Assembly (NCBI RefSeq): GCF_019649055.1
Contig: NW_026570303.1
Coordinates: 248,001 to 312,000, forward strand
Direction: 5' to 3'
Source of the DNA: Paramacrobiotus metropolitanus
Lineage: Eukaryota > Tardigrada > Eutardigrada > Parachela > Macrobiotidae
DNA: 64,000 bases
The position numbers were made by a program, and so were the translations under genes. Each line of letters begins with the position of its first letter. The stretch's first letter is position 1. This document shows, piece by piece, positions 20,820 through 53,932 of the stretch. The notes beneath the pieces were generated by a model. It searched no databases and was not told where the DNA came from. It saw nothing but the letters and a program-made list of their open reading frames with translations.

Positions 20820-21053
20820 TCAGTTGCCTCGATGGGCATCCTTGTGGTATTTGCCATCGTTCTTGGCTTGGTCGATGATATCGGGATGCTTAGGCAACGG
20901 CTTCTCGTTGGGCAGTTTCGGCAGTGGTTTGTTCTTGGGGTCGTTTGGATCTGGCAGATCCTTGTCCTTCTTGCCCTTTCCTGCATCAATGACCCCGGCG
21001 AAAATGGCGAAGCACAGCGTCCGCACAACGAGGAGGCGTCCAAGCAAAACCAT
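20820..21053 (-). CDS. Small secreted Lys/Pro-rich peptide, divergent paralog
   Basis: The gene encodes 77 aa in one exon. An N-terminal hydrophobic signal (to about residue 24, ending FAIFAGVIDA) is followed by a mature, cysteine-free, strongly charged segment that begins GKGKKDKDLPDP and ends KYHKDAHRGN. It is plainly related to the plus-strand triplicate copies at 22.0-24.4 kb: the same signal-peptide frame, the same GKGK start, a proline ladder (NKPLPKLP) and the identical KDAHRGN end. The start at 21053 lies just after the conserved GGTCAAA leader, and a TATAAAG box sits at 21173-21179. I do not recognise the family. Composition suggests a disordered extracellular peptide; the role is unknown. 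Confidence 0.78.
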   Translation of the reverse strand: MVLLGRLLVVRTLCFAIFAGVIDAGKGKKDKDLPDPNDPKNKPLPKLPNEKPLPKHPDIIDQAKNDGKYHKDAHRGN

Positions 21054-21179: not shown

Positions 21180-21841
21180 CACGTAATCTACCGCACTACG
21201 GAATGCTTATTATTCGGACTTAGAGGCTGAAAGATGTTGGTGATTCATGTTGTCTGTTACCGGGTTTCCCAATCAAAACATTACACTCTTGAGAAACCTT
21301 GACGTACTGTAGGTTTTCTACAGTTGCGTTTTGTATAGCAACTGATAGCCCATGTTGTTCTTTATAATTCCGGAGGCTGTTCTGGTCTGTATGCTGGTGC
21401 GTACGGTGATGCATCGTGCAACGGTCCCGCTCACGTTTTTTAAATGTTAATTGTTATTCAACCGACTCAGTAAACTGACAGAAACCGAAACTTTTCTAAT
21501 TGGCACAACATCCGTTGTTGTCTGTGCTTCCTCCAAGAAAATGACGGAATCATTGTTTTTTATTGTGGACCAGATCCAAGAAATTTAAGCAGTGGAAAGC
21601 TGCACGATTAGTCATAATTTCTGCACGCTTCCCACAGAAATCGACCGGAAACAGTCTCCGGATATTTACAACAAATGCTTACCAGGTCTAGTGCCAGATA
21701 CCATGAGGTTGCCGTAAGGTTTTTTGTGTGTTTTGTCTTTGCAAAAGAGACCTGCGACATACATATATCGTGACTCAATAACATCTTTCGAACTAAACGC
21801 TTAAATAATAAATATTTAGAAATACAACAAATGTGTATACG

Positions 21842-21848
21842 TATAAAG
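21842..21848 (+). promoter_or_regulatory. TATA box of peptide copy 1 (repeated in copies 2 and 3)
   Basis: TATAAAG, 127 bp before the ATG. Identical boxes occur in the other units at 22934-22940 and 24024-24030, and related ones precede the decayed copies at about 25184 and 29810. Confidence 0.6.
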
Positions 21849-21974
21849 ATGTTGAAAAACCGCGTAGTGATACCGCAGTTGGCTGATAAACTTTGTACAT
21901 GGTCCATTAACTTTAAAAGGTTTTCGTTTTCTTCAGCTATACGCTTTAGGAAACCTGTAGGACTATAGGTCACA

Positions 21975-22214
21975 ATGGCTTCTCTGCGTTTCCTATTCGT
22001 TGTACTGACGCTGTGCTTCGTCATTTTTGCCGGGGTCACTGAGGCCGGAAAGGGAAAGAACGACAAGGATCTGCAGAATCCGAAAGACCCCACGAACAAA
22101 CCGCTGCCGAACCTACCGAAAGAAAAGCGGTTGCCTAAACAACCCAGCATCGCCGACCAAGCCAAAGAAGAAGGCAAATACGAGTATCACAAGGATGCTC
22201 ACAGAGGCAACTGA
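21975..22214 (+). CDS. Small secreted Lys/Pro-rich peptide, tandem copy 1
   Basis: The gene encodes 79 aa in one exon. The signal peptide runs to about residue 24 (MASLRFLFVVLTLCFVIFAG, then VTEA). The predicted mature peptide is about 55 aa, with no cysteine, rich in Lys, Asp/Glu, Asn and Pro; it starts GKGKNDKDLQNP, has a proline ladder in the middle (NKPLPNLPKEKRLPKQP) and ends YHKDAHRGN. There is no Gly-Lys-Arg amidation site, so this is not a classical neuropeptide. Composition predicts intrinsic disorder. The poly(A) signal of the original gene is missing from this unit. I do not recognise the family, and function is unknown. Confidence 0.8.
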   Translation: MASLRFLFVVLTLCFVIFAGVTEAGKGKNDKDLQNPKDPTNKPLPNLPKEKRLPKQPSIADQAKEEGKYEYHKDAHRGN

Positions 22215-23066
22215 TAAACATACTGGACAATTACATAAATTAATCTAGAGGCGGTACTTGTGCAGATCGAACAGCCTTACCGATATAATTTGAAATCATA
22301 CACACTGATCTCGCTAGCAGTGGCTATTAGCAAGAAGATTTAATTTTGCTGTGCGGTATTCGGATTGTACTGTATATCGAACCGATTGAGGTTTACATTA
22401 TGACACCAGTTCAATTGCTTATCTGTATATAAAACTGATAGCCCATGTTGTTCTTTATAATTCCGGAGGCTGTTCTGGTCTGTATGCTGGTGCGTACGGT
22501 GATGCATCGTGCAACGGTCCCGCTCACGTTTTTTAAATGTTAATTGTTATTCAACCGACTCAGTAAACTGACAGAAACCGAAACTTTTCTAATTGGCACA
22601 ACATCCGTTGTTGTCTGTGCTTCCTCCAAGAAAATGACGGAATCATTGTTTTTTATTGTGGACCAGATCCAAGAAATTTAAGCAGTGGAAAGCTGCACGA
22701 TTAGTCATAATTTCTGCACGCTTCCCACAGAAATCGACCGGAAACAGTCTCCGGATATTTACAACAAATGCTTACCAGGTCTAGTGCCAGATACCATGAG
22801 GTTGCCGTAAGGTTTTTGTGTGTTTTGTCTTTGCAAAAGAGACCTGCGACATACATATATCGTGACTCAATAACATCTTTCGAACTAAACGCTTAAATAA
22901 TAAATATTTAGAAATACAACAAATGTGTATACGTATAAAGATGTTGAAAAACCGCGTAGTGATACCGCAGTTGGCTGATAAACTTTGTACATGGTCCATT
23001 AACTTTAAAAGGTTTTCGTTTTCTTCAGCTATACGCTTTAGGAAACCTGTAGGACTATAGGTCACA

Positions 23067-23305
23067 ATGGCTTCTCTGCGTTTCCTATTCGTTGTACTGA
23101 CGCTGTGCTTCGTCATTTTGCCGGGGTCATTGAGGCCGGAAAGGGAAAGAACGACAAGGATCTGCAGAATCCGAAAGACCCCACGAACAAACCGCTGCCG
23201 AACCTACCGAAAGAAAAGCGGTTGCCTAAACAACCCAGCATCGCCGACCAAGCCAAAGAAGAAGGCAAATACGAGTATCACAAGGATGCTCACAGAGGCA
23301 ACTGA
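23067..23305 (+). pseudogene. Peptide gene, tandem copy 2, frameshifted
   Basis: This is the same gene as copy 1, but one T is missing from the run at about 23116-23119 within the signal-peptide codons. The frame shifts after about residue 17, so the mature peptide is not made and an unrelated basic frame follows. All other bases of the mature region are as in copy 1. It is either a real loss in one copy of a redundant set, or a sequencing or assembly error in a homopolymer. Confidence 0.75.
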
Positions 23306-24156
23306 TAAACATACTGGACAATTACATAAATTAATCTAGAGGCGGTACTTGTGCAGATCGAACAGCCTTACCGATATAATTTGAAATCATACACACTGAT
23401 CTCGCTAGCAGTGGCTATTAGCAAGAAGATTTAATTTTGCTGTGCGGTATTCGGATTGTACTGTATATCGAACCGATTGAGGTTTACATTATGACACCAG
23501 TTCAATTGCTTATCTGTATATAAAACTGATAGCCCATGTTGTTCTTTATAATTCCGGAGGCTGTTCTGGTCTGTATGCTGGTGCGTACGGTGATGCATCG
23601 TGCAACGGTCCCGCTCACGTTTTTTAAATGTTAATTGTTATTCAACCGACTCAGTAAACTGACAGAAACCGAAACTTTTCTAATTGGCACAACATCCGTT
23701 GTTGTCTGTGCTTCCTCCAAGAAAATGACGGAATCATTGTTTTTTATTGTGGACCAGATCCAAGAAATTTAAGCAGTGGAAAGCTGCACGATTAGTCATA
23801 ATTTCTGCACGCTTCCCACAGAAATCGACCGGAAACAGTCTCCGGATATTTACAACAAATGCTTACCAGGTCTAGTGCCAGATACCATGAGGTTGCCGTA
23901 AGGTTTTTGTGTGTTTTGTCTTTGCAAAGAGACCTGCGACATACATATATCGTGACTCAATAACATCTTTCGAACTAAACGCTTAAATAATAAATATTTA
24001 GAAATACAACAAATGTGTATACGTATAAAGATGTTGAAAAACCGCGTAGTGATACCGCAGTTGGCTGATAAACTTTGTACATGGTCCATTAACTTTAAAA
24101 GGTTTTCGTTTTCTTCAGCTATACGCTTTAGGAAACCTGTAGGACTATAGGTCACA

Positions 24157-24396
24157 ATGGCTTCTCTGCGTTTCCTATTCGTTGTACTGACGCTGTGCTT
24201 CGTCATTTTTGCCGGGGTCACTGAGGCCGGAAAGGGAAAGAACGACAAGGATCTGCAGAATCCGAAAGACCCCACGAACAAACCGCTGCCGAACCTACCG
24301 AAAGAAAAGCGGTTGCCTAAACAACCCAGCATCGCCGACCAAGCCAAAGAAGAAGGCAAATACGAGTATCACAAGGATGCTCACAGAGGCAACTGA
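24157..24396 (+). CDS. Small secreted Lys/Pro-rich peptide, tandem copy 3
   Basis: This copy encodes 79 aa with the same predicted protein as copy 1. It is the only tandem copy followed by the ancestral AATAAA signal (24618), so it probably represents the parent gene's 3' end. Promoter and leader match copies 1 and 2. Identity of copies 1 and 3 at the protein level points to very recent duplication or ongoing homogenisation. Confidence 0.8.
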   Translation: MASLRFLFVVLTLCFVIFAGVTEAGKGKNDKDLQNPKDPTNKPLPNLPKEKRLPKQPSIADQAKEEGKYEYHKDAHRGN

Positions 24397-24623
24397 TAAA
24401 CATACTGGACAATTACATAAATTAATCTAGAGGCGGTACTTGTGCAGATCGAACAGCCTTACCGATATAATTTGAAATCATACACACTGATCTCGCTAGC
24501 AGTGGCTATTAGCAAGAAGATTTAATTTTGCTGTGCGGTATTCGGATTGTACTGTATATCGAACCGATTGAGGTTTACATTATGACACCAGTTCAATTGC
24601 TTATCTGTATATAAAACAATAAA

Positions 24624-25183
24624 ATTCACTTTTGAATAACTAGGAGAATTTACTTTTATACAGTCATAAATACCCACGGCTGTTATTATACTTCTAATTG
24701 TAATCATCGTCATGATAACAGTAATGTATTTAATTAACACTGTCCGAAAATAGTTGTCTGATTTGTTTGATTAGAAACTGAGAACTGAACCTGAGCAGCC
24801 TTTAGGAACACTAATTTCTTTTTAGAACAATGGTTTCGCAGAGTCTTTGCAACGTGTGATGCGCAGTTCCCATAAACACGTATGACATAATCTATACGAG
24901 TCGTACTCTGGATGATTTTTCTTATAGAGTATTATTATTTTGCTGTTAACCGACGCATGTTAGAATAGAGTGCGAACCCGTGCAGTTACCGTAAGGTACT
25001 TTCTTTGTTTGATTTCGCTGGATAGCCACTAACATTTCGAAAAACGTGTGCGTGACTGTTTGCATAATGCGTTGGTTGTCATTTAAGAGAAACCTGCTAA
25101 AACATCGTGACTCACTAACACCTTTTGGGCTATACAGACTCTGTACGCCTGAATAATGAACATTCAGAAATGCGATAAAGATG
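24624..25183. other. Spacer before decayed peptide copy
   Basis: No intact gene. Parts resemble the upstream part of the triplicated unit and the region near 29.7-30.1 kb, so it is old duplicated flank. Confidence 0.5.
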
Positions 25184-25745
25184 TATATAAAGATGCAAGA
25201 AAGAAACCGTGATGCTGCATTTGGCTGATTAGGAAGTTTTTACATGGTCCATTTCATTTTGCTTAGCTGTATGAATTACTAATGGTCACAATAGTGTCTT
25301 TGCGAGACCACTTCGTTGTGCTGACGCTGTTCTGACGCTCCATTTTTGCCAGAAAGGGTAAGAAGGACTAGGATCTGCAGGATCCAAGAGGCTTCAAAAA
25401 TAAACTGTTGCCGAAACGGCAGAACGAGGAGCCGTCTTCTAACAGCCCAGTATCAACAACCAAGCAAAGGAAGAAAAGCGAATACCACAAGGATTCTCAC
25501 ACAGGCAACTGATGATAAAATGGACGACACCAAAGTTAGTCTGTAGACGGTACTTGTATGTACAGATCGATTCGCCTAACATACGTTTAAAATTTTAACT
25601 CACTAATTTCACAAAAAAGGACTAGCAGCAAGAAATTTAGTTTTACTAGGGGGTTTTCGAATTGTATATCGAACCGCTAGATGCTTATTGCTTATATTAC
25701 AACAAAAGTTTACTTATCTGTATATAAAACAATAAAATTCCTTTT
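25184..25745 (+). pseudogene. Decayed fourth copy of the secreted peptide gene
   Basis: The promoter (TATATAAAG at 25184-25192), leader (GGTCACAAT), coding region (about 25291-25512) and 3' end with AATAAA (about 25729) align with the tandem units. The start codon has become ATAGTG, a stop lies inside the signal region, and indels shift the remaining frame. Pieces such as the AAGGATTCTCACACAGGCAA end still match the KDAHRGN codons. It is a clear pseudogene. Confidence 0.75.
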
Positions 25746-26559: not shown

Positions 26560-26681
26560 TGATCAAATGGGCAATATTACCATTGCAATGCTCTGGTAAG
26601 CAGATTAAGCCATACATAAACTGCTGTTTAGTGAGTGAAGCAGGTGGTTAATACTTGGTTTTTTAATGCAATAACTGCAAT

Positions 26682-28767
26682 ATGGGAGAATCAGCTAGTA
26701 CCGGCAGCGTTCGTGACCCTCTCACAGCAACAACTTTCTTTGCCTGCTTTATTGTGGCGCTCTCTGCGTGGTTCACAGGAGGCTACAGTTCAGCGCAGAT
26801 CAACGTTCCACAGAACCTGATCATCCAATGGATTCGCCAGGTCCAGTGCGCACGCATAACGGATGATTTAGCGCCCACCACTTCCAGTCTGAACGGTACG
26901 CACAGAGATGCAGTTTTGTGGTGCTCCGATGTCCCCGAAAACGAAACATCCCTGCACCTGCGAGGTAGCGGACGTTTGGGGGCCATCTGGAGCATGATCG
27001 GATGTGGGGTCATGTTGGGCGTATCGGTGGGATTATTGGTGACGAATCATTTGGTGGAGTGGTTAGGATTCCGGAAGGCGCTTCTGGTGTTCAACGCGTT
27101 GGAATTAATAGGAAGCATCGCCGCAGGCTGTAGCGTAATTGCCAGATCGTACGAACTGTTTATCATTGGTAAGAAAAAGACTGGAAAACGAAATTTTACA
27201 ATTTGATCGTTTAGTGAGGGTAGTACCGTCCTAAAGTTGCCCCTAGAGGCTAGTACCGTCCTAAAGTTGCCAAGATTTGTAAAAGATTTTCTTAACGGGC
27301 TTTCAAATTTTTTTTGGTTAATTCTGAATATATTATATGTTCTTGATTCAATTTCACACGATTTTTATTTTATGAAGGCTAATTATGGACAGAAATTCTA
27401 AAAGAATCTTATGTTTTTTTTGTACTCTTCAAAAATTATTTACTGTTGCCTGTATAATAATTTTCCAGCCAGCCAAAATAAAATTACGTTCTAGCGAAAC
27501 CCCAAAAATTAAAACAATAAAAAATGTATGGAAAACTCGTAACAGTAGCGGCTTTACAAATATGCAGATGACCTTTCTGGCACGTTTGTGTTAAGCTAAG
27601 TCAAACAATTTTTTTTCATGTACAGGACGAGTCATCTTTGGAGTGGGAAACGCTTGCGTGGTGGTTTGCGGCGTATACGTAGCGGAAATCAGCACGAACA
27701 ACCATCGGGGCGCGTTGAATGTTCTTGGAACAGTATCGCTCAGTGCAGGAATACTGTTGGCGAATGTTATTGGACTACCGCAACTGCTCGGCACTCACGA
27801 TAATTGGCATCATATGTATTGGATCTGCCTCTTGCCCAACCTAATTTTCATCGCTTCATACCATTTCCTGCCAGAAAGTCCTCGTTGGCTGTGCAGGAAA
27901 GTACGCGACACCGGCAAATTGGAAACCGTACTGCGGCGTCTGCGAGGCCGGCAGAATGTGGACGCCGACATCTGCGTCCTACAAAACGAAGTGGAGTCAG
28001 CCCAGAAATTACGCAGTCAGAAGCTGTCGATTCTTGATCTTTTTCGTGATGGGTTCTTGCGGAAAATCTTGGGTATATGCTTGCTAACTATGGCGGCGCA
28101 GCGCTTAACCGGCTATTCGGTGGTGTTAGTTTATTCAACGGAAATGCTACGCCAGTGCGGAATTACTCAGGCATTAGCATCCTATGGAACCATCATTTTG
28201 ACGGCGCTGTCAGCCGTGGTGGCCCTTCTTAGTTCGCCGTTGCAGGACCTTGTGGGACGCCGACCGATGCTGTTAGGTGGCCTTTTCGGTTGTGCACTGT
28301 CTACCGCGGCCATGGTGGTTTTCACGGTGTTGACGAAATATGCGGTGTGCTCCACGTGTCAGTACGGCAACCTGGTGGCCATGGCTTTCTTCGTGGTGTG
28401 CTATGCGATGGGACCGGCCAGTGCACCGTTTCTCATTACGGCGGAGATGTTCGGTATGACCTCCAGACAATCAGCTTCCGCGTTCGGGTTTCTCGGCAGT
28501 GTATCGTTAGCTACGGTAATTACTGCGGTGTTCCCCACTATGCAGGCGTATTTTATGGAATGGACGTTCACGATCTTTGCCGGTATTACAGTCATTCTGG
28601 CCATATTTCTGTCGGTTTTGCTGGTAGAAACAAAAGGAAAATCGTTTTTGGAAACACAGAAAACATTAGAGGATCGATTTTGTGCGGGAAGAAAAGAGCC
28701 ACGAGAACCTATAACTCCCCAGGGAAAGGACCTTGAAAAACAGTGCAAAACACTTGAAAACACTTGA
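26682..28767 (+). CDS. GLUT-type (SLC2/MFS) sugar transporter, copy A
   Basis: Two exons (26682-27168 and 27626-28767) give 542 aa. This is a major-facilitator transporter of the plasma membrane with about twelve hydrophobic helices. Sugar-porter signatures are visible: a large first loop with several N-glycosylation sites (NGT, NET) between helices 1 and 2; PESPRWL after helix 6; a QRLTG segment in helix 7 in place of the QQLSG of glucose carriers; GRRPMLLGG between helices 8 and 9; and VETKGKSFLE at the cytoplasmic end. It probably moves hexose or a related polyol by facilitated diffusion; substrate cannot be read from sequence. It is a close paralog of copy B with the same intron position. 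Confidence 0.88.
27220..27271 (+). repeat. Two direct copies of a ~21 bp word in the copy A intron
   Basis: TAGTACCGTCCTAAAGTTGCC occurs twice, separated by ten bases, in the only intron of transporter A. The duplicate gene's intron lacks it. Confidence 0.7.
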
Positions 28768-30665: not shown

Positions 30666-30821
30666 TGATCAGTTTAAGACTGTTACCACTGTAATGCGCC
30701 GTTAAGTTAGTGGGTATTGATATTGTATCTCGATTAAGCTACTTCTCTACATAAACTGCAATTTTATACAGAGTACGTTAAACAGATTACTTACTTGGCT
30801 TCTTAATGCAGTAATTGCAAT

Positions 30822-32676
30822 ATGGGAAAAGCAGCTAGTACCGGCAGCGTTCGTGACCCTCTCACAGCAACAACTTCCTTTGCCTGCTTAATTGTGGCGT
30901 TCTCCTCGTGGTTCACAGGAGGCTACAGTTCTGCGCAGATCAACGTTCCACAGAACCTGATCATCCAATGGATTCGCCAGATCCAGTGCGCGCGCATAAC
31001 GGATCATTTGGCACCAGCCGGTGTCAGTCTGAACGGTACCCACACCGATGTAGTTTTGTGGTGCTCCGTTATCGCCGAAAACGAAACATCCTTACACCTG
31101 CGCAACAACGGTCGTTTGGGGGCCATCTGGAGCATGATCGGATGTGGGGTCATGTTGGGTGTGTCGGTGGGATTCTTGGTCGCGAATCATTTGGTGGAGT
31201 GGTTAGGATTCCGGAAGACGCTTCTGGTGTTTAACGTGCTAGAAATGATGGGGAGCATCGCAGCGGGATGTGGCGTGACTGCTAGATCATACGAGTTGTT
31301 TATCATTGGTAATAAGAACAAATACGAAAAACTGGAATTTTGCAAATAAACTATTTGATAACTGATGGGCTTATTACTTACATTTTCGAGAAACCTTATT
31401 ATTATTATCATACTCTATTTTTAAATGAAGATTTTTTACTGGGCCATTGAAAGATTTGTTTGGGTAATTTTGAAAATATATCTCATATTTTCTCGGTTTA
31501 ATTCCTTCGATTACATTTGTGTTACGCTAAACTATACAATACAATTTTTATATATGTACAGGCCGATTCATCTTTGGAGTGGGAAACGCTTGTGTGGTAG
31601 TGTGCGGTGTATACGTAGCGGAAATCAGCACGAACAACCATCGCGGATCGTTGAATGTTCTTGCCACAGCATCGTTCAGTGTCGGAATATTGTTGGCGAA
31701 TGTCGTTGGACTACCGCAATTACTTGGCACTCCCGATAACTGGCAGCATACGTGTTGGATCTGCCTCGTACCCAGTCTCATTTTAATCGCTGCATATCGT
31801 TTCCTGCCCGAAAGCCCTCGCTGGCTCTGCAGGAAACAACAGGACACCGGCAAACTGGCAGCCGTACTGCAGCTCCTTCGGGGCCGGCAGAATGTGGACG
31901 CCGACATCTGCGCAATACAAGATGAACTAGAAGCCGCCCAGAAATTAAGCAGTCAAAAGCTGTCAATTCCTGACCTGTTTCGCGATAGGTTTCTGCGGAA
32001 AATCACTGGCATATGCTTGCTGGTAATGGCCGCGCAACGTTTGACCGGCTTTTCGGCGGTGTTTGTCTATTCCACGGAGATATTCCGTCAGTGCGGAATA
32101 ACGCAGGCCCTAGCGTCTTACGGAACCATTATTCTAACTGCACTGTCCGCCGTGGTGGCCCTGCTTGGTTCACCGTTGCAGGATATTTTTGGGCGACGGC
32201 CAATGCTGCTTGGTGGTCTTTTCGGATGTGCGCTGTGCACTGCGGTCATGGTGGTTTTCACGGTGTTGACGAAATATGCGGCATGCAATACGTGTCAGTA
32301 CGGCAACCTGGTGGCCATGACCCTCTTCATGGTGTGCTATGCGGTGGGACCGGCCAGTGCACCGTTTCTTTTTACGGCGGAAATGTTCGGCATGTCCTCC
32401 AGGCAATCAGCTTCCGCGTTGGGCTATCTCGTCAACGTCTCACTAGCGACGGTGATTACAGCGGTCTTCCCCGCCATGCAAGCATATTTAATGGAGTGGA
32501 CATTTACGATCTTCACCGGAATTACATTTATTCTAGCCGTGTTTTTGTCGACGGTGCTTGTAGAAACGAAAGGAAAATCGTTTCTGGAAATACAAAGCAT
32601 GCTGGAGGATCGATTTTGTGCGGGAAGAAAAGCGTCGCTGGAATCAATGATTTCCCAGCGCACTGATCTTGAATAA
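30822..32676 (+). CDS. GLUT-type (SLC2/MFS) sugar transporter, copy B
   Basis: Two exons (30822-31308 and 31562-32676) give 533 aa. It is collinear with copy A: the same first-exon length (487 bp), the same split glycine codon at the splice, and the same motifs (PESPRWLCRK, QRLTG, GRRPMLLGG, VETKGKSFLE). Replacements cluster in the first extracellular loop, in the linker after PESPRWL and in the C-terminal tail, which is shorter. Frame and helices are intact, so both duplicates are likely functional. Differences in loop 1 and helix 7 (YSVVLVYSTE versus FSAVFVYSTE) could shift substrate preference; that is inference. Confidence 0.88.
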
Positions 32677-33566: not shown

Positions 33567-34481
33567 TTACCATACCATGAAACCCAGAGAACATAAAAGA
33601 GAAATTAATTCGTTTTGGGCGCATAAGCAAATTTCATAAGTTTCCCCAATTACTATAAAATCGTCTAAATAAGCGACGATAGCGAATTTACGGCGCCGCA
33701 TCATGCGGCAGATGGCCGTTGAAATTTTTTGAAAAATTGATGGGGCGTTTGAAAGCCCAAAACAAAGAAAGTTATCTACATAAAAACTCTCCGATTCGTT
33801 TGGGAACTGCCAGCGGAAACCTTGGAGTTGACGATGCTCCGGTTTGACTGGAACCCAGCGGTATGCAGACTTGATGTCTATCACCGCGTAAAAACAACCA
33901 GAACTGCTTAGCCTAATTACATCTTCGAGAGACTGAAATGAGAATGCTTCGGCATCAATAAAGGAGTTAACGCTGCAGTGAAGAGGGCGACTGCAATCTG
34001 TGATAGGGCGCAAGGCTGTGTTGCCTTTCTTTGAAACCGCACCGATGGCATTAATTCGCAACGGTTTATAACTTTGTTTTGATAGTCTACCCGTTGCCAA
34101 TTCTTCGGAGAAAAGACGGTCTAGAAAGGGTTTTGCCTCAGGAGATAAGGCGCTCTTGTAATTTGTACAGTCCGCCGGCGGCACTGAGTGAATATCCGGC
34201 ACGAGAGAGAAACCCTGAGCGAGTCCAGTTAGCAAAAATAGGCTATCTGGGTGGTCTGCTTCAAGCTCTCTTGACCAGTTTTCAATGCTGCGAGTAAGAG
34301 AGGAGCGCAAAATCAGATCGGCGTCAAGAGATAGGGAAACGTTATCAAAAACAACATAATTAGGCGCAGGTGTTTGCGGTGAGGCTTTAGTGTGAAACGT
34401 TCCCGCGGTTTCGCTGATTGCCGGCAGTGCAACTGCTTGCTGGGTGGCCTTCGCTGCCACAGTGCCCACAGATATGTGCAA
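33567..34481 (-). mobile_element. DIRS-like retrotransposon: reverse transcriptase, 3'-truncated
   Basis: An open frame of 304 codons encodes the finger and palm of a reverse transcriptase. Visible motifs are AVIDIKSAYRWVPV (motif A), FLCFGLSNAPSIFQ (motif B) and VAYLDDFIVIG (catalytic YLDD, motif C). The HRQLQGFRWQF segment before motif B is typical of DIRS-type elements rather than Gypsy. The frame stops right after motif C (LGFMVW), so the thumb, RNase H and tyrosine recombinase expected for DIRS are missing. No ATG opens it; its first codons overlap the gag-like frame by 95 bp in the +1 register, so the intact element probably used frameshifting. The copy is dead. Confidence 0.8.
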
Positions 34482-35613
34482 ACCCGGTGCAGATATTGGC
34501 GTTACATTTATTCTCTTGCCAGAAGAAACAACAGGAAAAGCGATAGCGCCGCTGCCCGTTTTGCTGGCTTTTGTTACTGTTGCCGTACCCGCGAAAAAGC
34601 TGCGCTTTTTTGCCTGTTTTAATGACAGTTAGAGCAGGCCGGCGGTTGCGTGCGTAAAAATGCTTATCACATAACAGTGCGCGTTTATGAGTATCGCATA
34701 AATCGAATTTCTCATAATTCGCGTTAAATCGAAATTCGTCGTCAAAAGCCAAAACTGATTCGTCGGTGTAGTCCCGATGGCGCACGACAAGAAATTCAAT
34801 GTATTCAAGGTAAACTTCAAGCGCATTCTGATATTTGCCCGTTACCGTTTGCGCTAGGCGCACGGCGGTTCTAAGGCTGTATATCAAGAAGTCATCAAAA
34901 GTCAACTGTGTTGCATCCGGTTTTACACGTTTGCCCTTCTCATTTAAAATTTTCGCCGCTTGCTTGTGTGGCAGAGGAAGTTTTCGAGCCACACTAGCAA
35001 GCTTGGCTACTGACTGTGAGCGGGAACGAACGGATGACTTTGAACTACGAGATAGGTTACTGTTTGACCTACCTCCACTGGTGTTGGATTCGCTGCGTTG
35101 TTGATTGCGGCTGGGACGGTAGCGTCGACGGGAACTGTTGCGCGATGAGTTGCTGGCCGCCCGGTCGGTGTTGTTGGCCTTGCGTTGGTCGATGACACTA
35201 CGCAGATCGCCGGTGTTGGCGCGCTGCTGCCGTGGCCCAATAAACAACTGCACTTCCATGCGGTCGGCGTCCATGGTGATGAACTTCAGATTAGACGGGA
35301 AATCCTGACACAGGGCCAGTCGACGCAATTTTTTGACGGTGGCAAATCCGGCATTGAGGATTTCGTTGACCGATTGTTCAGCAAGCTGCAGTGTTTCCCC
35401 GAGGATGGTAACGGAATCAGGATCGGGAGTTGGTTCTTCCACCACTGAAGGAGACCGGTCGTGAGAGCCCTGTGAATTCTCCATACCGTAATGATCGTAC
35501 AGTCGAATCAGCATATCATTCTTGGTGCCGGAGTCATCCACTTCTTGGCCGCGACAATGGTCCATCAGCTCTTCTTTAGTGAGTTTCTTAAGGGCAGTCT
35601 TGCTGGGGGCCAT
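34387..35613 (-). mobile_element. DIRS-like retrotransposon: gag-like protein with SAP domain and zinc knuckle
   Basis: The predicted protein of about 408 aa starts at MAPSKTALKK (35613); an in-frame ATG 36 bp upstream is possible. Residues about 8-42 (LTKEELMDHC...GTKNDMLIRLYDHYG) fit a SAP DNA-binding helix-turn-helix. A long Ser/Arg/Asn-rich basic stretch follows, then a helical region, then a CCHC zinc knuckle near the end (CGHCGSEGHPASSC). Such a SAP plus knuckle ORF1 fits the nucleocapsid-like protein of DIRS elements. The frame is intact, so the insertion is not very old. Confidence 0.75.
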
Positions 35614-35983
35614 GGCGATATTAATCAACCAAATTAAAAACAAATGCAAGCAAAAAATAACTACTGTGTAAGCAAAAGCTTATGACAGTGCGTCAAAATT
35701 TATATCAATTCAACTAATTGATGAAACCAAAAACTTATCTGTCTCTAACTATCTATAAGATAGTACAAGAGAACGATAATAGGAGTTATTCAAAAAGTTG
35801 TACGGAGAACGGGAAAACGTTAAAGGTCACACAGTGCGTACACTGCACTAACAAGATCACAAATATAACGCTGCGGAATCAAAGTGTCCGTGGACTATTT
35901 GATTGTGGCAGCAGTTCAAAACAAAAATTTCCTTAACGTCAGCTTGCAAATGGTCTAATGCGATGGTCTTGACCGCGCTCCCG

Positions 35984-39933: not shown

Positions 39934-40290
39934 TTATCTCTGCCCAGCGTTCATAGCAGCAGCCGGACTGGAGCGCTGTCCGGCATTGGCAAAGGTAAAA
40001 AGGAGCGCCTTCTCATCCGTATCCGGATCGCGGATCTCCCACATAAACATGGGCGACAGCAGGCGCGGTGCATGCTCCTCCAACAGTCCACTCCGCTTGC
40101 CAAACCGCATGGGTATGCGATTCTTACAGCGGAAACACTTGACACTGGTGGGATACATGGTACATACCAGCATGCAGCCCTTCTGATAATTCGCCGAGAG
40201 GTCCTGTGAGGAAAGGTCAGCGGTAGCGGCTGTGTCCGTACACTGGACAGCCACGATGAGGACAGCGAAAAAATATAGAAAAGGTGACAT
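39934..40290 (-). CDS. Candidate neuropeptide precursor with a four-cysteine, PMRF-amide product
   Basis: The gene encodes 118 aa from the ATG at 40290 (an in-frame ATG at 40305 would add five residues). The signal peptide is MSPFLYFFAVLIVAVQC or ends close to it. The next segment has four cysteines in a C-x3-C-x8-C-x2-C pattern (GCMLVCTMYPTSVKCFRC) and runs into KNRIPMRFGKR, a textbook Gly-Lys-Arg amidation and cleavage site. The predicted product would be a disulfide-bridged peptide ending RIPMRF-amide. A spacer without other dibasic sites follows and the protein ends with a repeated NAGQR word. I do not recognise the exact family. A TATTAAAA-like box lies about 100 bp upstream. Confidence 0.65.
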   Translation of the reverse strand: MSPFLYFFAVLIVAVQCTDTAATADLSSQDLSANYQKGCMLVCTMYPTSVKCFRCKNRIPMRFGKRSGLLEEHAPRLLSPMFMWEIRDPDTDEKALLFTFANAGQRSSPAAAMNAGQR

Positions 40291-40305
40291 TTTGAAAAGA
40301 CCCAT

Positions 40306-42438
40306 TTTATGAGGGAATAGAGCCGGGGATGCAGGGAAAGGGGATGATAAAATGCTGCACAGGATAAGGATGGAGTAATATGCCGTGCGGCGGGCGATTT
40401 TAATAGCCGGATGGTAGGGCCCGTAAACACATAGTGTCAATTACGTCAGACTAATTAGTCGGGCGACTTGCTATGGATGCCCATGCGGATGATTAGACGA
40501 TGCTGGTACCCCCCGTTGACGTCTGTTCGTTTCGCCTAACAATAGCCGCTTTTATCCTGTAGGACAACATAGGGATGATATTCGCTCTTGCATCGTGGAA
40601 ATGCGAGAGATGCGCAGGGAAACGCACAACAACCAGGTTAAGTCGGATGTCGCATTCGGCGGTATAAAGAGATGATTAATCTAGGTGCAGTATATTGGTC
40701 CAATTGGTTCCGGTAATTTGTCCATGTCATGTACTTGCTGATTTCCGGTTGTGCAGTGCGATTCCGAAAAATTAGACATCGATTTTGGATAGCTGGTGCT
40801 TCTTTAATTTTGTTTGTGTGTTACAAGATTTGTAGAATGCGCAGGACTTTTCAAGATGAGCGCAAACTGCAGCCGTCATGCAACGACAGCGATGTAGTCA
40901 TATGTTTTCTCCTTTGAACTTTTACATAATAATATTAACGACAAAATTGTTCTGTCGCCAGCCGGTTACTACAATCGCTAGTAAAAATTATCTCCTCGGT
41001 CTGAAACATGTGCTTACGCAGATATATTCTGTACAAATGGCCCCAACGGAAAAGCAAATTCCGTTTTTGGAAAGTGTAAAGTTAATTAAGCATGATCGCG
41101 CTAAACCCAGTCACGTGCTGGTAGCGCGTAAATAATCCCAAAATAGGTTATCCACCTGGCGACTGGAAAAAAAGAAGGGAGCCTAAAATACTTGCTTTCA
41201 TGACTTCACTTGCATGCGCTGTAAATATTTGTATAAAAACCTTTCTGCCTTTACTCAGAAAAATCGATTTCCACACATATTTTGTGAAATTAGGTATAAC
41301 TGAAAACTGCTCCGAACGTAGCGGCGCATCAAAACGCAAATATTATTGAATTCTAGAACTACTGTATTTGTGCGTAAACCGTGTTTAGGTTGACTGTGAA
41401 GTACGCGTAGCGCGCATAATTATTACAAGACAGAAGTAATAATTCAAAATGTATATTGTACAGTACTCGTATTTATGCCACTCAAAGACGGAGATTGTGT
41501 AACATCAACGGTCACGCAGCATAAAATATTAGTTAAAATCGGCTTTCAATAAAAATTATTGTTATATGTACAAAGTATGCAATCTGTAGATTGGGTTGCT
41601 GGAATCGGTACTCGATACTTTGTCGAGTATTTTTTTAAAACTTGCGCAAAGTTTGTCACATGCGTTTGTCCCTTGCCATAGGAAAGTGACCGAAAGTCAA
41701 CCAATGCGAGGGAGGTAATCACACGATGGATCAACTGAAGTGGTAATTCGGAACAAATCATTTCCTCGAGCGGTCCGCTCACAGTCAGGCTTATGCGAGA
41801 GATTGTCAAACTTGGAAAGATGGCGTTCGGCTTGGGTGTTGTCTCTTGTTCAAAGTAAAGTAGATAATCTCCTGAGAATTCTGCGTTCACGTTACCGTTG
41901 ATTAAAAAACCTAAGAAAGTGCTGTACCTGTTACTGAACAGAAACGCTGCCCTGGCTTGAAGTTTGTGCCAGTAATTATACAGTAACTTCCGGAATCATG
42001 AGACATGAATGCTTTATGCTTCGAATTTCCTTTCCTATGAAAACAGTATACCTCACAGTTGCCCACACCAGAAACATCAGATCAGTCTGATCTACTCTAC
42101 ATGTTCACATTTTTTCAAATTCTTTCGCAGAGTATTAAGCATTGCATTGAGTCGGCTATGACTGCGCAGTGTTCATTTCTGGTCTCCCTTAACCGAATTT
42201 AATAGTCAGCGAGACTTTTCATCGTTTTATGGTTATTTTTCTGCAGTGGCCTTCCTGTCTTGTTGTAAGACTGTATTCTTGTTGCTGATGTTTACTGTTA
42301 AGTGCAGTACTAAATCTTATATACGCGTATCCGCTTTATATCAGCTCTAGAGACCGACAAGGTCACCGGTCATTATTTGATTTTTTTAAACACGGCGTAT
42401 TGGGACAATAGAGCGCCAAAACATACCCGAAGTGCTTA
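40306..42438. other. Region between two divergent genes; one unexplained open stretch
   Basis: Mostly no gene. On the minus strand 41546-41995 stays open for about 150 codons without an ATG and looks protein-like in composition (for example YNYWHKLQARAAFLFSNRY and FQSLTISR-like words). I see no family match or flanking exon, so it may be a gene fragment or chance. Confidence 0.4.
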
Positions 42439-43903: not shown

Positions 43904-46519
43904 CTACGGTGATCTCCATCCGCCAAACGCCTTCTCCAGCTGCCGTGCGACTGCCAGTGACAAGCGATCTTGCTGGAAATTACTGACCACCTGGATACCG
44001 TAGGGTAGCCCATTTTTATCGAGACCCATTGGGACGTGGGTACTTGGCAGTCCAATGGCATTAAAAACAGCTGGAAAAATTAGCGGATAAATATTAACAG
44101 AATAGATTGTCAGGCATAATCAGTTAATTATGAAATAGAAGACTACACACATATTTTACTGAATACGTTTATTGATTATTAAAGTCTCATCTGTTACGAG
44201 TATAGAAAAACATCCTTACAAGTATAGATGAAATTCATATGCATGGCCAAGGCTCGGTTGTGGTAGGGTGCCGTGTGAGGATGTGTGGGGAGTATCAGTA
44301 TGCCATCATCCCCAAGGATCTTCACAAATTCACTTTCTAGCCTGTTTCTCATTTCACAATAACAGCTTCTGTAAAACTACAATCAGCTCCTGTAATAGAT
44401 CCTTTTCCAGTTCGAATGGATACTGAGAAAGGGGAGCGGCGGCACTACTTTCGCAAAACCAGATTAACATACCGAAAAGCTGGATCCGGTTTGTGCTGTT
44501 CCACCCAAGCCAGATACAGAGCAATCAGAGTGTGCTCGGACCGTCCACAAAGAAGCCGGCCGAACTCGTGAACGGGATCCAATTTGCCCTTTCCGTTCAC
44601 CATATCGGCAGCATAACTGTGGGTCGGGTTGTGGATGACCTCGGCTTTCCAGATATCCGATGCATAGCGAAGGTCTACCATTCGACTCTTAAAATCTTTC
44701 TCTGGAACCAGTTGAGCCTTGAACTGTCCGGTCAGATGCATGACCGCCTTCAGTACAGCATCTTTAATGCACCTCTCCACGGGCGTGATGAAGGGATTTT
44801 CGATCTGCAGTAAATAATGAACACGCAACTTCGACAGATCGACTTCCGTGTCCAGAGATAAGGCTTTGGCATTTGGTCCCAATAAAACCTGTAGCAAAAC
44901 ATCACGACTAAAATGAACGACAGAATATGTATAGCAAGAAGCGCATTACTTTACAGAATGGCGCCAGGTCCTCCGCGTAACGACACAACGGCCCCACCGT
45001 CGCAAAGCGTGCTGACTCATCGGTGGCCGGCGGATACTTGCCCTCCAGGGGTGTCAGCCCGCGCGTTGGTTTGTGGCCAAAGACCCCGCAGAAAAATGCC
45101 GGCATCCGTATACTGCCACCGATATCCGAACCCAATCCGCACGGTGATCCCGCCGCCCCGACAATCACGCCTTCGCCGCCCGATGAACCGCCAGTTGCCC
45201 GGTTGGGATCGTAGGGATTGTTGCTGCGCCCGTACAACTTGTTGCTGGTCTCCCACCACATGCAGATTTCCGGGATATTGGTCACGCCCAAAATTATAGC
45301 ACCTACGATGCTGTGTATTTTATTAGGCTTTTCGCAATATTTTTACTGTCAGGAAGGCGCATAGACTTGGTCGGGGCGCACAGCCTGTAATGACAATGTC
45401 ATGCACGATTGCTTCTTCCATACCGGTGGAAATTGTTTTCGTATTAAAACTTCACTGAAATTTCAGAAAAAGATTTAAGCTAGAACTTTTGAAGAAGGAC
45501 ATATTTTTAAAGGATCACGATTTACGACCACCCGGTGTGACAGCGAATTGGCGGTTTTTATCTGGAAATCTCCAATCTGTAATGCAGTACTGTATGTACT
45601 AGAACTTGTACTAGAACTTCCGGCTAGGTTGACAGTCTAGCATGGGATTTTAAACTTTTTAAACTTCATGATTCACAGACAAGGGAAAGGTAAATCAAAA
45701 GAGAAACAATGCGATGTAAGTGAAAATCAAATTGACAAAATTTAATTTAATTTTCAGTTGCTTTATCTAACATTTACTATCTGAGTGCTCTCCTTTACGA
45801 GGGCAGTAAAAATTCTTCTGTTTTTTGATTTTTTTCTTGTGAATAATTTTTAGTGGTTGTGCCAATCAGAGTGATGTATTTTACTAATTTACGTAGTGTG
45901 TGGCTCGAGGTTTATGATGATTCTCGTATCATTAAGATATAAATTTGCATTTACAATCGAACTTGCAAGACAAAACTATTGCAGGTCTGTAAACTTACAA
46001 TTTTTTAAAAGTGTAAAAAACTTGGTAATCGCTCTGTTTACCGGCATCGCGCAGTCGTCGTACGGCCTCGCAGTCTTCCTCCGCCAAGATCCCTTTCCTC
46101 GCCGGTGTACCAGCCGTAAACGGCATCCCTTTAACCATCCAGCTCTCCTTCACCGATATGGGGACGCCGAGAAACGGTTGACGTTCTTCGGAGAACTCTG
46201 ACTGGTCCAGATTGTCGAATCCGATGCTGCGTAAGCGTCGGTCCAGCTCGCTGGCTTCCCGTCTGGCTGCCTCGAATCGCTCGGCCACCATTCCGTTGAC
46301 GATAGGATTGACATGCTTCAGGCGTTGGATGTACGCTTCAGTTACATCATAACTGGAGATCTCGCCGGCGCGGATTCGTCTAGCCGTGGAAGTGGCACTT
46401 TGAAGTAGCAATTCCGATCGAATGGGTGGCAGCCGTTGTTTCGTACCGAAGATCCAGGTGAATATACTGAATACCAGATTAGACACTAAGTCCATCGCAA
46501 AACGGATGAACCACCACAT
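43904..46519 (-). CDS. Fatty-acid amide hydrolase 2-like amidase, copy A
   Basis: Five exons (46519-46042, 45302-44950, 44888-44473, 44368-44220, 44070-43904) give 520 aa. This is an amidase-signature serine hydrolase. The catalytic Lys lies in GVPISVKESW, the cis-Ser in GGSSGGEG and the nucleophile Ser in GSDIGGSIRMPA, so the Ser-cisSer-Lys triad is complete. An N-terminal hydrophobic helix (FAMDLVSNLVFSIFTWIFG) anchors it in membrane, as in FAAH2. Family members cleave fatty-acid amides such as anandamide or oleamide. The homologous start of copy B is ACG here, so translation must begin ten codons later at 46519. The exon sizes after exon 1 equal those of copy B. Only about 75 bp separate it from the talin-like gene upstream. 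Confidence 0.88.
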
Positions 46520-46593
46520 CCAATCGGCCAGTGTCCAGTATTCCGTCGTCTTAAATTATTCAGTAGTGCTAGCGTTTAAACGATGCAATTCGT

Positions 46594-49150: not shown

Positions 49151-51863
49151 CTAAGGTGATCTCCATCCGCCAAACGCCTTTTCTAATTGCCGTGCGACTG
49201 CTAGGGACAAACGATCCTGTTGGAAATTGCTGACCACCTGGATACCATACGGTAGTCCATGTTTGTCCAATCCCATTGGGACGTGGGTACTGGGCAGTCC
49301 AATGGCATTAAAAACAGCTAAAAAAATAACCCGGATTGGCTTCACCGAATATTTGCAAAATATAATTAACTAATTCTATTTTACTTTTTAATTTATATTT
49401 TTAAACTGTCTTTTTATAATTTTATTTTATTTTATCTGATTTTTGTTTCTTTTTTAGATATATTTTATCTAGTTACACATATCTACCAACGCTTTTTAGC
49501 TAGAAAAGTATCCTTACACGTATAGATAAAATTCATATGCATGGCCAGGGCTCTGTTGTGGTAGGGTGCAGTGTGAGGATGTGTGGGAAGGATTAGTATA
49601 CCGTCATCGCCAAGAATTTTCCTAAATTCACTTTCCAGCCTGTTTCTCATTTCACAATAATAGCTTCTGTAAACACAACTGCAATCAGCTAACATAGGAG
49701 CTCGGTTTTCCAGTTCGTGTAATATAGGGAAAATGAACAAGGGGAAACACTTTCGCAAAAGAAGACCATCAACGTACCGGAAAGCTGGATCCGGTTTGTG
49801 CTGTTCCACCCAAGCCAGATACAGAGCAATCAGAGTGTGTTCGGACCGTCCACAAAGGAGGCGGCCGAACTCCCGAACGGGATCCAGTTTTCCCTTTCCG
49901 TTAACCATATCGGCAGCATAACTGTGGGTCGGGTTGTGGATGATCTCGGCTTTCCAGATATCCGAAGCATAACGAAGATCTGCCATTCGACTCTTAAAAT
50001 CTTTTTCCGGGACTAGCTGAGCTTTGAACTGTCCGGTCAGATGCGAGACCGCCTTCAGTACGGCATCTTTGATGCACTGCTCCACGGGTGTGACGAAGGG
50101 ATTTTCGATCTGCAGTAGATAGTGGACGCGCAGTTTCGACAAATCGACTTCCGTGTCCAGAGATAAGGCCGTCGCATTCGGTCCCAATAAAACCTGTATC
50201 GAGAATTTACATCGAAAATGTCCGAAAAACTTTGTATAAAACGAAGCGCATTGGTTACTTTACAGAATGGCGCCAGGTCCTCCGCGTAACGACACAACGG
50301 TCCAACAGTCGCAAACCGCGCTGACTCATCTGTGGCCGGCGGATACTTGCCTTCCAGAGGCGTCAGTCCGCGGGTGGGTTTGTGGCCGAAGACCCCACAG
50401 AAAAAGGCCGGCATCCGAATACTGCCACCGATATCCGAACCCAATCCGCACGGTGATCCGGCTGCCCCGACAATGACGCCCTCGCCGCCCGACGAACCGC
50501 CAGTTGCCCGGTTGGGATCGTAAGGGTTGTTGCTGCGCCCGTACAACTTGTTATTAGTCTCCCACCACATGCAGATCTCTGGGATATTGGTCACACCCAA
50601 AATTATGGCACCTACGATGTTGCTTTGCATTAGGTTGCTCGGAAGGCGAACATACTAGTGTCTATGAAAACGTCATTATTATTTCACAAAAAATTTCAAT
50701 TTAAAACTTTTAAAAAAGGAAATTCACGATTGCGACTACCCGGGATAACATGTACAACGCAATGGGATTTGTATCTAGAAATTTTCCATTCTTAGTTCCC
50801 ATTCTTTCTTTTAAATTTTCGTCGTACTTCGTAAAAGTTACTTTTTTCCAATTTAGAAAAAAACTTAAAAATTAGGAATAGTTTCGAAGAATAATTCTCA
50901 GTTGGAAATGCATGGTTTGCAACACGAATTACGCATGAACAGCCAATCTTCGCGACTCTTTAAGTATCTTCGCGACTCACAGACAATTGCAACGTAAATT
51001 GAAAAGAGAAACAATGCGATTTAAATTAAATGAATTCTGACAAAACTAGTTTAATTTGCAAATGTTTTGTCTTTTTACTCTTTGAGTACTCTGATCTGCG
51101 TTGGTAATAAAAATACTTATAATAGTTTTTATCGTGAATAATGTTCAAGTATGTAGTTGTGCCAATCAGAGTGAAGTATTTTACTGAATACGTAGTGTTG
51201 TGGCTCGTCATTTGTGATCTACGCGTACCCGTTTCGTCAAGATTTAGCTCTACATTTACAATCCAACTTGCAAGGTAAAAAAATTGCAGATCTGTAAATT
51301 TATAACTTTTTATAAAATTTAGTACTGCTGAATCAGTTATAATCGCTCTGTTTACCGGCATCGCGAAGTCGTCGTACAGCCTCACAGTCCTCCTCCGCCA
51401 CGATCCCTTTCCTTGCCGGTGTACCAGCCGTGAACGGCATCCCTTTAACCATCCAGCTCTCCTTCACCGATATGGGGACGCCGAGAAACGGTTGACGTTC
51501 TTCGGAAAATTCTGATTGGTCCAGATTGTCAAAACCGGTGCTGCGTAAGCGTCGGTCCAGTTCGCTAGCTTCCCGTCTGGCTGCTTCGAATCTGTCGGCA
51601 ACCATTCCGTTGACGATAGGATTGACATCCTTCATGCGTTGGATGTACGCTTCAGTTACGTCCAAACTGGAGATTTCGCCGGCGCGGATTCGTTTAGCCG
51701 TGGAAATGGCGCTTTGAAGTAGCAATTGCGATCGAATTGGTGGCAGACGTTGTCTCGTACCGAAGATCCACGTGAATATACTGAAGACCAGACTGGACAC
51801 GAAGTCCATCGCAAAACGGATGAACCACCACATCCAATCGGCCAGTGTCCAGTATTCCGTCAT
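49151..51863 (-). CDS. Fatty-acid amide hydrolase 2-like amidase, copy B
   Basis: Five exons (51863-51356, 50611-50259, 50193-49778, 49666-49518, 49317-49151) give 530 aa, close to the usual FAAH2 length. The start is MTEYWTLADW. N-terminal membrane helix, catalytic Lys (GVPISVKES), cis-Ser (GGSSGGEG) and nucleophile Ser (GSDIGGSIR) are all kept. It is highly similar to copy A and the intron phases are identical. Intron 3 (49667-49777) contains no stop in the exon 3 reading frame, so retaining it would give a longer reading frame through the exon 3/4 region; the matching intron of copy A is not open. Both copies likely hydrolyse lipid amides at membranes. Confidence 0.88.
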
Positions 51864-52818
51864 TGTGAATGACTCAACAGTGTTCGGATTTTAACGCTGC
51901 AATTCGCGTGAGTAGTTAATCGTTATCCCTGTATTGTCTGTTAGATATTTCTGCTACATTGAAAAAGCTTAATGCACACAGAAACCAACAACCGATAAAA
52001 GCAGAAAAATTATTAGTGTCCAACTCAATTGCAACTAACTCTGCAGTTCCAATTTCGTGTTGGTTCCATATTATGTTACTTACAACAGTACCTTGAGTGA
52101 ACTGCAGTTCGATTAGATAGACTTTTGTTTACTACGCAACCTTGTATAATAATATCGCGCACATCACCGCAAACCTGAAAATGCAGTTTGTACCGCGGTA
52201 ATTCAAAGTTTGCAACGATGTCTGGCTTTACAAAAGCAAACAATGATGTCTTATCTTAGGGATGCTCTTTAACCGTACGCTTACACTTGAATGAATAACT
52301 GGTGCTTCCGCTCTACGTGTGCAAAGGGTAGCGGACAGAAAAATTCACACAATTAGACGAAAAACATCTTCTATAAAATAAAACAAAACGTCATATAAAA
52401 CAACACAATAAGTTCATAAAAGAAACTAAAAACATGCATTTATGCCGAATTGTTACGCCCCAGTATTATTGAGACAAAAGGAGAAAGAGAGTGGGAAAAG
52501 ATTTTGCAAACAATGCTTTTACGCAATACAATTATTATAAGCATAAATACAAGGTACTTATGCGGGTACATGTAGAAATTGTTAGATCCGGCTTTACTGG
52601 CAGAAATTTCGAAATTTCTTTTCGAATCCTTTTCTATTTGTGGTGTGCTTACCTATGTGGGATAATGTGTCATCAATCGGCAACCGTCATACTCTCATTG
52701 CTCAACCGGGAATTACATGTATATTTCTGTTGCAGGATTCTTTGTGTGGTTGGGTTGCGTGCTGTAGACGTTGAAATACGTTTTTTGATTTTATCGCTTT
52801 GGCAAAGTTACATTCACA
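51864..52818. other. Intergenic region between FAAH B and the H4 pseudogene
   Basis: The first about 95 bp resemble the DNA 5' of FAAH copy A. I see no gene in the rest; an open frame leads into the H4 pseudogene but has no family match. Confidence 0.5.
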
Positions 52819-53125
52819 ATGACTGTCGTGGAAATGTTGGTAAAGGTCTCGGAAAAGGAGGTGCCAAGCGTCACCGTAAAGTCCTCCGTGACAGTATCCA
52901 AGGCGTCACCAAACTAGCCATCCACTGTCTGGAGAATCGTGGCAGAATGAAGCGTATTTCTGGTTTGATATACGAGGAGACGCGCGGCGTAGTGACGCTC
53001 TTCCTGGGGAATGTTATCGGCGAAGTCGTCACCTATTCTGACCATGCCAAACGCAAGACCTTCACCGCCATGGACGTGGTGTATGCTTTGAAACGCCAAG
53101 GCAGGATGCTCTACGGATTTGGATT
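52819..53125 (+). pseudogene. Histone H4 pseudogene
   Basis: The sequence follows histone H4 from the start (ATGACT) to YGFG. One base is missing directly after ATGACT, so the ATG is out of frame with the rest. The H4 frame keeps [31 protein letters not shown] and [14 protein letters not shown]. It has many changes at sites that are nearly invariant in real H4, for example [13 protein letters not shown] in place of KPAIRRLARRGGV and [11 protein letters not shown] in place of VFLENVIRDAV, and the stop after YGFGG is lost. No histone 3' stem-loop follows. Confidence 0.85.
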
Positions 53126-53932
53126 GTGGAGTGCATCTTGCGCTGATTTTACAAGGTCGTCCTACACTCTGGTATGCTTTAGTCCATTTTCTGTCTTTTT
53201 AAAATGTTGTTAGCATATCAGTTTTCAAGTTTTGATTGACGGAAAGTGTCGCATAATCGTGCGGACTGGCACATCACAGTAGTAAGCAGAATTAAAAGTC
53301 TTGCAGTTGAGAGGCTAGCACCATAAATTGTAGTGCATAGACACTACAGAGACGGGATATGTCACACGCCGATTTCATGATTTGACTGTAGGAAATGAAA
53401 TTACTCCATGTACTTAAAAGCTACTGCAGTGAAAACATATTTGCGCGGCCATAGCTTTGTCCGCATAGCTTTTTTCAAAAGACAGATACTGGCAATAAGA
53501 TGCTAACAATAATTATTATGTACAGTGCAAATGTACAATTACTATGATACAATGTACAGATACGGTACATTAAAGTATTTACAGATCCATACCGTATGTA
53601 CAGATAGGTACAGTGATGCGCGTACAGCTACGCTACGTCGGCACATCTGCAACAATTTTATTAATTTTAATCTTGTCATAAGTCATCCATGTGCGTGCAC
53701 TTGAAATGGTGCAGTACATAACCAACATGCTTAAGTGAAAAATTTTATACATAAGTTACGAAAAATCTGTACCAAAACTCTTTGCGTTCATACTCATACT
53801 AGGTAATATTAGGCAACAATTAATGAACAAAAATTAGCCGAAACTTCTTCATTTTTTATCGCGTTATAGAATAATCTAATGCAATCCAGTATAGTGGGAT
53901 GATTATAAAACGAATAAAATCCAACCCGCAGC
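53126..53932. other. Intergenic region between H4 pseudogene and PKD
   Basis: No gene seen. Simple TACAGTAC/GTACAGAT-type words are frequent near 53515-53640. AATAAAAT forms near 53910 could not be assigned with certainty to the minus-strand kinase. Confidence 0.45.

Follow-up and report, generated by a model that had tools for sequence, protein, structure and literature searches.

A tandem triplication within a small family of predicted secreted Lys/Pro-rich peptides in the tardigrade Paramacrobiotus metropolitanus

The tandem array and its neighbouring copies

The window that we analyzed, the whole stretch of 64,000 nucleotides from Paramacrobiotus metropolitanus, carries at 21341-24615 an array of three direct units on the forward strand, each 1,091-1,093 bp in length. 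A preliminary description of this DNA had reported three near-identical units of about 1.09 kb that differ by a few bases, and this was confirmed, since the units measure 1,093, 1,091 and 1,091 bp and their alignment contains four differing columns. The features at the locus are the following:

20820..21053, minus strand: partner gene INV with its stop, 77 aa, head-to-head; outside the interval reported before
21341..22433, plus strand: tandem unit 1, 1093 bp
21369..21375, minus strand: CTCCGGA at -322 of INV, inside unit 1; recurs at 22462 (unit 2) and 23553 (unit 3)
21656..21662, plus strand: CTCCGGA at -319 of copy 1
21842..21847, plus strand: TATAAA at -133 of copy 1
21975..22214, plus strand: copy 1 (T1), coding sequence with stop, ATG at 21975, 79 aa, intact
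22434..23524, plus strand: tandem unit 2, 1091 bp
23067..23339, plus strand: copy 2, frame as assembled, ATG at 23067, 90 aa, with a one-T deletion
23525..24615, plus strand: tandem unit 3, 1091 bp
24157..24396, plus strand: copy 3 (T3), coding sequence with stop, ATG at 24157, 79 aa
24618..24623, plus strand: AATAAA, 221 nt past the stop of copy 3; absent at the junctions behind copies 1 and 2
about 25104..25725, plus strand: older decayed copy, with ATA for ATG and internal stops; outside the interval reported before

Three of the four differing columns are single-base homopolymer indels, and the fourth is a C/T substitution that is private to copy 2 in the alignment of the three units. Copies 1 and 3 show zero substitutions over 1,091 aligned bases, which by the rule of three makes a divergence above about 0.27% unlikely. 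Every one of the three units gave E = 0 in a DNA search of the genome (169,799,020 bases in 533 contigs, with the contig of the window labelled C83), which excludes a chance repeat. The array is absent from the Tandem Repeats Finder list because the longest period there is 500.

Copies 1 and 3 encode an identical intact peptide of 79 aa. The previous claim of a 79-codon gene in each unit fails for the middle one, which is frameshifted as assembled: copy 2 lacks one T from a run at alignment column 684, within the signal peptide, departs from the family frame past residue 17 and continues to 90 codons in a foreign frame. Its substitution lies about 15 bases from this deletion and reads GTCATTGA, like INV on INV's strand, a match that may be coincidental or reflect conversion. 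The published assembly of Paramacrobiotus sp. TYO is described as based on R9.4 nanopore reads, with Canu, nanopolish, Pilon and HaploMerger2 as the programs used (PMC8277472), and in a later study the TYO strain is called P. metropolitanus (PMC11191345). If the window stems from this assembly, the frameshift in copy 2 is possibly a nanopore consensus error; residual homopolymer errors are plausible where near-identical repeats are assembled from nanopore reads, so the frameshift is not to be trusted without the reads themselves. Likewise, if the window belongs to that nanopore-based, HaploMerger2-processed assembly, neither the copy number nor the three homopolymer indels can be taken as certain.

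The preliminary description had placed the array correctly, while its account did not include the inverted partner INV, the decayed copy or the paralogues on other contigs. The INV protein is 71% identical to that of copy 1. The decayed copy shares 65% DNA identity with the unit; when it was compared with unit 3 in blocks of 100 columns, the identical fraction was 0.61-0.81 in the 3' two thirds and about 0.42-0.54 in the part preceding it. As this decayed copy adjoins the array, the locus had already duplicated before.

A family of constrained coding genes

A protein search of the genome returned 12 matches at E<=10, corresponding to 11 gene copies at five loci, and a second query returned the same 11 copies. 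Counts of this kind are lower bounds, and the family comprises at least 11. Besides the three tandem copies, INV and the decayed copy in the window, there are two copies on contig C440, two on C143, one on C3 and one on C49. Eight of the 11 are intact, namely T1 and T3 (79 aa, identical), INV (77 aa), the four copies on C440 and C143 (70 aa) and the C3 copy (76 aa), and the other three are disrupted, namely copy 2, the decayed copy (about 25104-25725) and the C49 copy, which has a stop inside the conserved motif. Head-to-head pairs occur at three of the five loci, with ATG-to-ATG distances of 922 bp in the window, 2165 bp on C440 and 1862 bp on C143. The C440 and C143 loci are diverged segmental duplicates, whose collinear stretches of at least 400 bp are 74-85% alike.

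These genes are constrained. Across the 27 pairs of differing intact copies dN/dS ranged from 0.025 to 0.40, and dS exceeded dN in all eight of the pairs tested (one-sided Fisher's exact p from 0.0021 to 2.4e-9, for eight pairs chosen from the 27, with rounded counts and with shared ancestry, so that they are not independent). The seven distinct intact proteins have 22 invariant alignment columns, which include NKPLP as well as the Ile, Gln and Ala of a P(S/D/T)I(T/A/I)(E/D)QA motif. The members of the family are coding genes under purifying selection and not chance frames.

The peptides contain KPLP blocks and, toward the C terminus, a short motif that is conserved. By inspection, the first 24 residues of T1 are hydrophobic and signal-like, in agreement with the secretion proposed before, and the remaining mature part of 55 aa contains 20% Lys, 13% Pro and no Cys, with a net charge of +4, a pI of 9.5 and a charged fraction of 0.40, nine of its residues being acidic. 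The mature C440 and C143 peptides have 46 aa, 28% Pro and a net charge of +5 or +6. In all eight intact copies the mature peptide lacks Cys, has a pI of 9.5-10.2 and falls on the disordered side of the charge-hydropathy line, and across the family the net charge is +4 to +6 and the charged fraction 0.30-0.42. AlphaFold, run on two proteins of the window with a two-sequence alignment, predicted helices at residues 3-24 (the signal) and 59-66, and neither a strand nor a further helix of at least four residues; at a mean pLDDT of 64 and a pTM of 0.24, the model is weak evidence. The mature peptide is cationic and Cys-free, and it is probably mostly disordered. A Lys/Pro-rich peptide, as had been proposed, agrees with the composition, and probable disorder agrees both with the composition and with the low-confidence model. 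The description of the peptide as cysteine-free applies to the mature part, as the signal peptide has one Cys, and the term highly charged suits the 40% of charged residues but overlooks that this is a mixed-charge chain with a net charge of only +4. A neuropeptide precursor was considered and rejected, since the KR at T1 residues 51-52 is KP in the other six of the seven aligned proteins and the dibasic site is therefore not conserved.

The peptide had been said to belong to no assignable family, and Pfam, NCBIfam and the PDB indeed gave no match above cut-off for these proteins; with 11 copies at five loci in its own genome, however, it is not an orphan. NCBIfam returned one chance-level match (TrbK_Ti, E 0.22) for one of seven members, and the best PDB E values were 1.2 for T1 and 0.62 for the family profile. 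The Pfam family DUF4576 (PF15144) matched weakly at T1 residues 4-49, covering the signal peptide and the first repeat, and four of the seven members gave such weak matches; T1 scored 13.8 bits against a gathering cut-off of 27 and the best E among the seven members was 0.054, which does not amount to membership. Among the papers listed by our literature searches, no title names such a peptide family, which does not imply that it is unpublished, since BRAKER models are mentioned for the published assembly (PMC8277472). The family is without a database name and is worth naming.

A mobile element was unsupported as the source of the copies: all nine genome DNA matches of unit 1 were family members, although very common words are passed over in this search and scoring is confined to the best candidates, so that nine matches are no proof of rarity. 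Retroposition is an unlikely source too, given that promoter and intergenic sequence is part of the unit. We also rejected contamination and a prokaryotic origin, as 243 pattern matches in a collection of contigs (genome_contigs) yielded 0 confirmed relatives.

Upstream elements, boundaries and the age of the array

We compared the upstream regions of six members of the head-to-head pairs (T1, INV, the two C440 and the two C143 genes). All six have CTCCGGA at -315 to -333 and a TATA-type hexamer (TATAAA or TATATA) at -115 to -133. CTCCGGA was not found upstream of the C3 copy, the decayed copy or the C49 copy, for which the start position was assumed. Shuffling gave a chance of about 0.01 for CTCCGGA per 420-bp upstream region, and the six occurrences are not independent because the copies are homologous. 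The combination of CTCCGGA and TATAAA was rejected as a family-specific regulatory signature: at a spacing of 185-207 bases the pattern has 123 matches genome-wide, compared to 78 for the reversed control, and fits only three of the six pair members (INV and the minus-strand genes of C440 and C143), the gap in T1 being shorter and two members having TATATA. The same pattern search brought up four copies of another repeat within 6 kb at G000:C88:269488-275255. A splice-site-like TTTCTTYAG precedes the ATG in both T1 and INV.

Copies 1 and 2 keep the upstream region with CTCCGGA and TATAAA but are without the AATAAA of copy 3. The nearest poly(A) variant, TATAAA, lies about 213 nt beyond the stop in all three units, and INV has its own AATAAA about 245 nt beyond its stop. 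The dosage amplification proposed in the preliminary description is thus doubtful as assembled, with the middle copy out of frame and AATAAA missing after copies 1 and 2, and the extra copies may therefore add little product.

The left edge of the unit lies 288 bp upstream of the INV ATG, and its right edge immediately before the AATAAA at 24618, which belongs to the tandem gene. The two internal junctions are identical, and the trinucleotide AAC at the breakpoint is common to the left flank, both internal junctions and the right flank, which suggests a duplication joined at microhomology. We propose that one arm of the head-to-head pair, with the boundaries just given, would have been duplicated at this 3-bp AAC microhomology and afterwards expanded to three units, presumably by unequal exchange. 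Only one arm of the pair is multiplied in the window.

Very probably, the array arose when a single gene of this small and constrained family of predicted secreted KPLP-type peptides was triplicated in tandem very recently. The young age suggested earlier is supported by the lack of any substitution between copies 1 and 3 over their 1,091 aligned bases. The triplication itself is ordinary gene-family turnover and unsurprising, and the array would mark a very recent copy-number change in cultured lines.

It is unlikely that an assembly artefact accounts for the triplication or for its exact copy number. Three of the four differing columns are homopolymer indels although runs of at least four bases make up 6.6% of unit 1, and the published assembly is described as nanopore-based and haplotype-merged (PMC8277472), as an artefact would have it. 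On the other hand, the two internal junctions are identical and share microhomology with the flanks, reads with the reported N50 of about 17 kb (PMC11191345) would span the 3.3 kb, and the adjoining decayed copy testifies to an earlier duplication at the locus. It is less likely still that the array is old and was kept alike by gene conversion, because the noncoding parts of the unit are as alike as the coding part and neither INV (dS 0.51) nor the adjoining decayed copy was homogenized, even though the sole substitution of copy 2 yields the INV reading at that place and, over a 229-bp block beginning 3 bp ahead of the ATG, the inverted arms share 93.9% on C440 and 90.8% on C143; the differences between these arms are mainly silent, so that constraint can explain their likeness.

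Possible functions of the peptide

The preliminary description had named matrix, antimicrobial and stress-protective factors as possibilities. If the signal-like start is removed after Ala24, the peptide would be released as a mostly disordered cationic chain of 46-55 aa. Such a chain might bind an anionic extracellular surface (a secreted matrix, the cuticle or a microbial envelope) through its Lys/Pro repeat, and the conserved P(S/D/T)I(T/A/I)(E/D)QA helix might provide a specific contact. This binding of an extracellular anionic surface by repeat and helix together is the function that we favour, tentatively, over its rivals; simple polycation binding is disfavoured by the nine acidic residues in the 55-aa chain. 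When this functional step is joined to the evolutionary account of recent triplication, we regard the whole, our best explanation, with moderate confidence.

A somewhat less likely possibility is a host-defence peptide working in the manner of the proline-rich antimicrobial peptides, which would be secreted, linear and cationic and would act on bacteria. Peptides of that class hit the 70S ribosome or DnaK of bacteria. A survey of tardigrade immunity (Mapalo and colleagues, 2020) is reported to have left it open whether tardigrades possess novel antimicrobial peptides (PMC7056985), and for this reason such a role is attractive here. The proline-rich antimicrobial peptides of arthropods and mammals (apidaecin, drosocin, abaecin, Bac7 and others) are, like the family, secreted, linear and of net positive charge. 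The signal-like start seen by inspection and the Cys-free mature peptide with a net charge of +4 to +6 agree with this model, as do the 28% Pro of the four C440 and C143 peptides and the turnover in copy number.

We used ten proline-rich reference peptides listed in a review table (PMC6017362). Four of the seven distinct family peptides, with 28%, fall within the 25-46% Pro of these references, and T1, INV and C3, with 13-17%, lie below it. Several properties depart from the antimicrobial model. The PRP motif was absent from all seven distinct family peptides and present in eight of the ten references. This motif is a typical hallmark of proline-rich antimicrobial peptides and not a universal one. 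The family has Lys where the references have Arg (Arg 0-4% and Lys 17-25% in the family, and Arg above Lys in nine of the ten references), its acidic content is 9-17% compared to 0-13%, and its mature length is 46-55 aa compared to 15-35. The C-terminal helix predicted for the family is also unlike proline-rich antimicrobial peptides, and the low dN/dS gives no sign of an arms race.

An extracellular stress protectant, that is, a secreted disordered polyampholyte guarding a secreted matrix during drying, is supported by the charged fraction of 0.30-0.42, by the disorder expected from charge and hydropathy and by the fact that the source organism is a tardigrade. The secretory abundant heat-soluble (SAHS) proteins of tardigrades share with the family the N-terminal secretion signal and the phylum. 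SAHS proteins are described as a secreted heat-soluble family that is related to fatty-acid-binding proteins (FABPs) and rich in beta-structure, with four exons in SAHS1 and SAHS2 (PMC3429414). No such similarity was found in our family, in which a single open frame encodes 70-79 aa including the signal, Pfam gave no lipocalin match for any of the seven members, and the PDB gave no FABP match for T1 or the family profile. The best lipocalin-family match in the genome is an ordinary fatty-acid-binding protein. The antimicrobial and the drying-protectant roles are equally open, each with a minor share of the likelihood, and a protectant would not be SAHS-like by sequence.

It is conceivable, and rather improbable, that this KPLP family is lineage-restricted and, with its head-to-head pairs, shared upstream elements and amplification at one locus, represents a new class of tardigrade extracellular effectors, either as a novel antimicrobial family or as a drying protectant. 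Small, constrained and predicted to be secreted, the family has a likely cleavage site and synthesizable products of 46-55 aa, in a probably anhydrobiotic tardigrade.

Other features were observed in the window. A frame at 39934-40440 (minus strand) has a signal-like start, four Cys and an MRFGKR site, and gave no Pfam match; it is a possible neuropeptide precursor. Retroelement frames lie at 33567-35679 (minus strand), with RVT_1 found in one of the two frames scanned and not in the other. Two closely similar tandem genes at 44445-46555 and 49483-51890 (minus strand) are, as we presume, amidase-like, and the one frame tried had no Pfam match. The frame at 52827-53129 (plus strand) is histone H4-like, with about 100 residues aligned to H4 in the PDB at E 2.3e-44; it carries many changes, has no Met at the expected start and is probably either an unusual variant or an H4 pseudogene in decay. 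Beside the peptide array lie two similar tandem genes at 26667-28767 and 30807-32676 (plus strand), the first of which matches the Pfam family Sugar_tr at E 5.3e-64.
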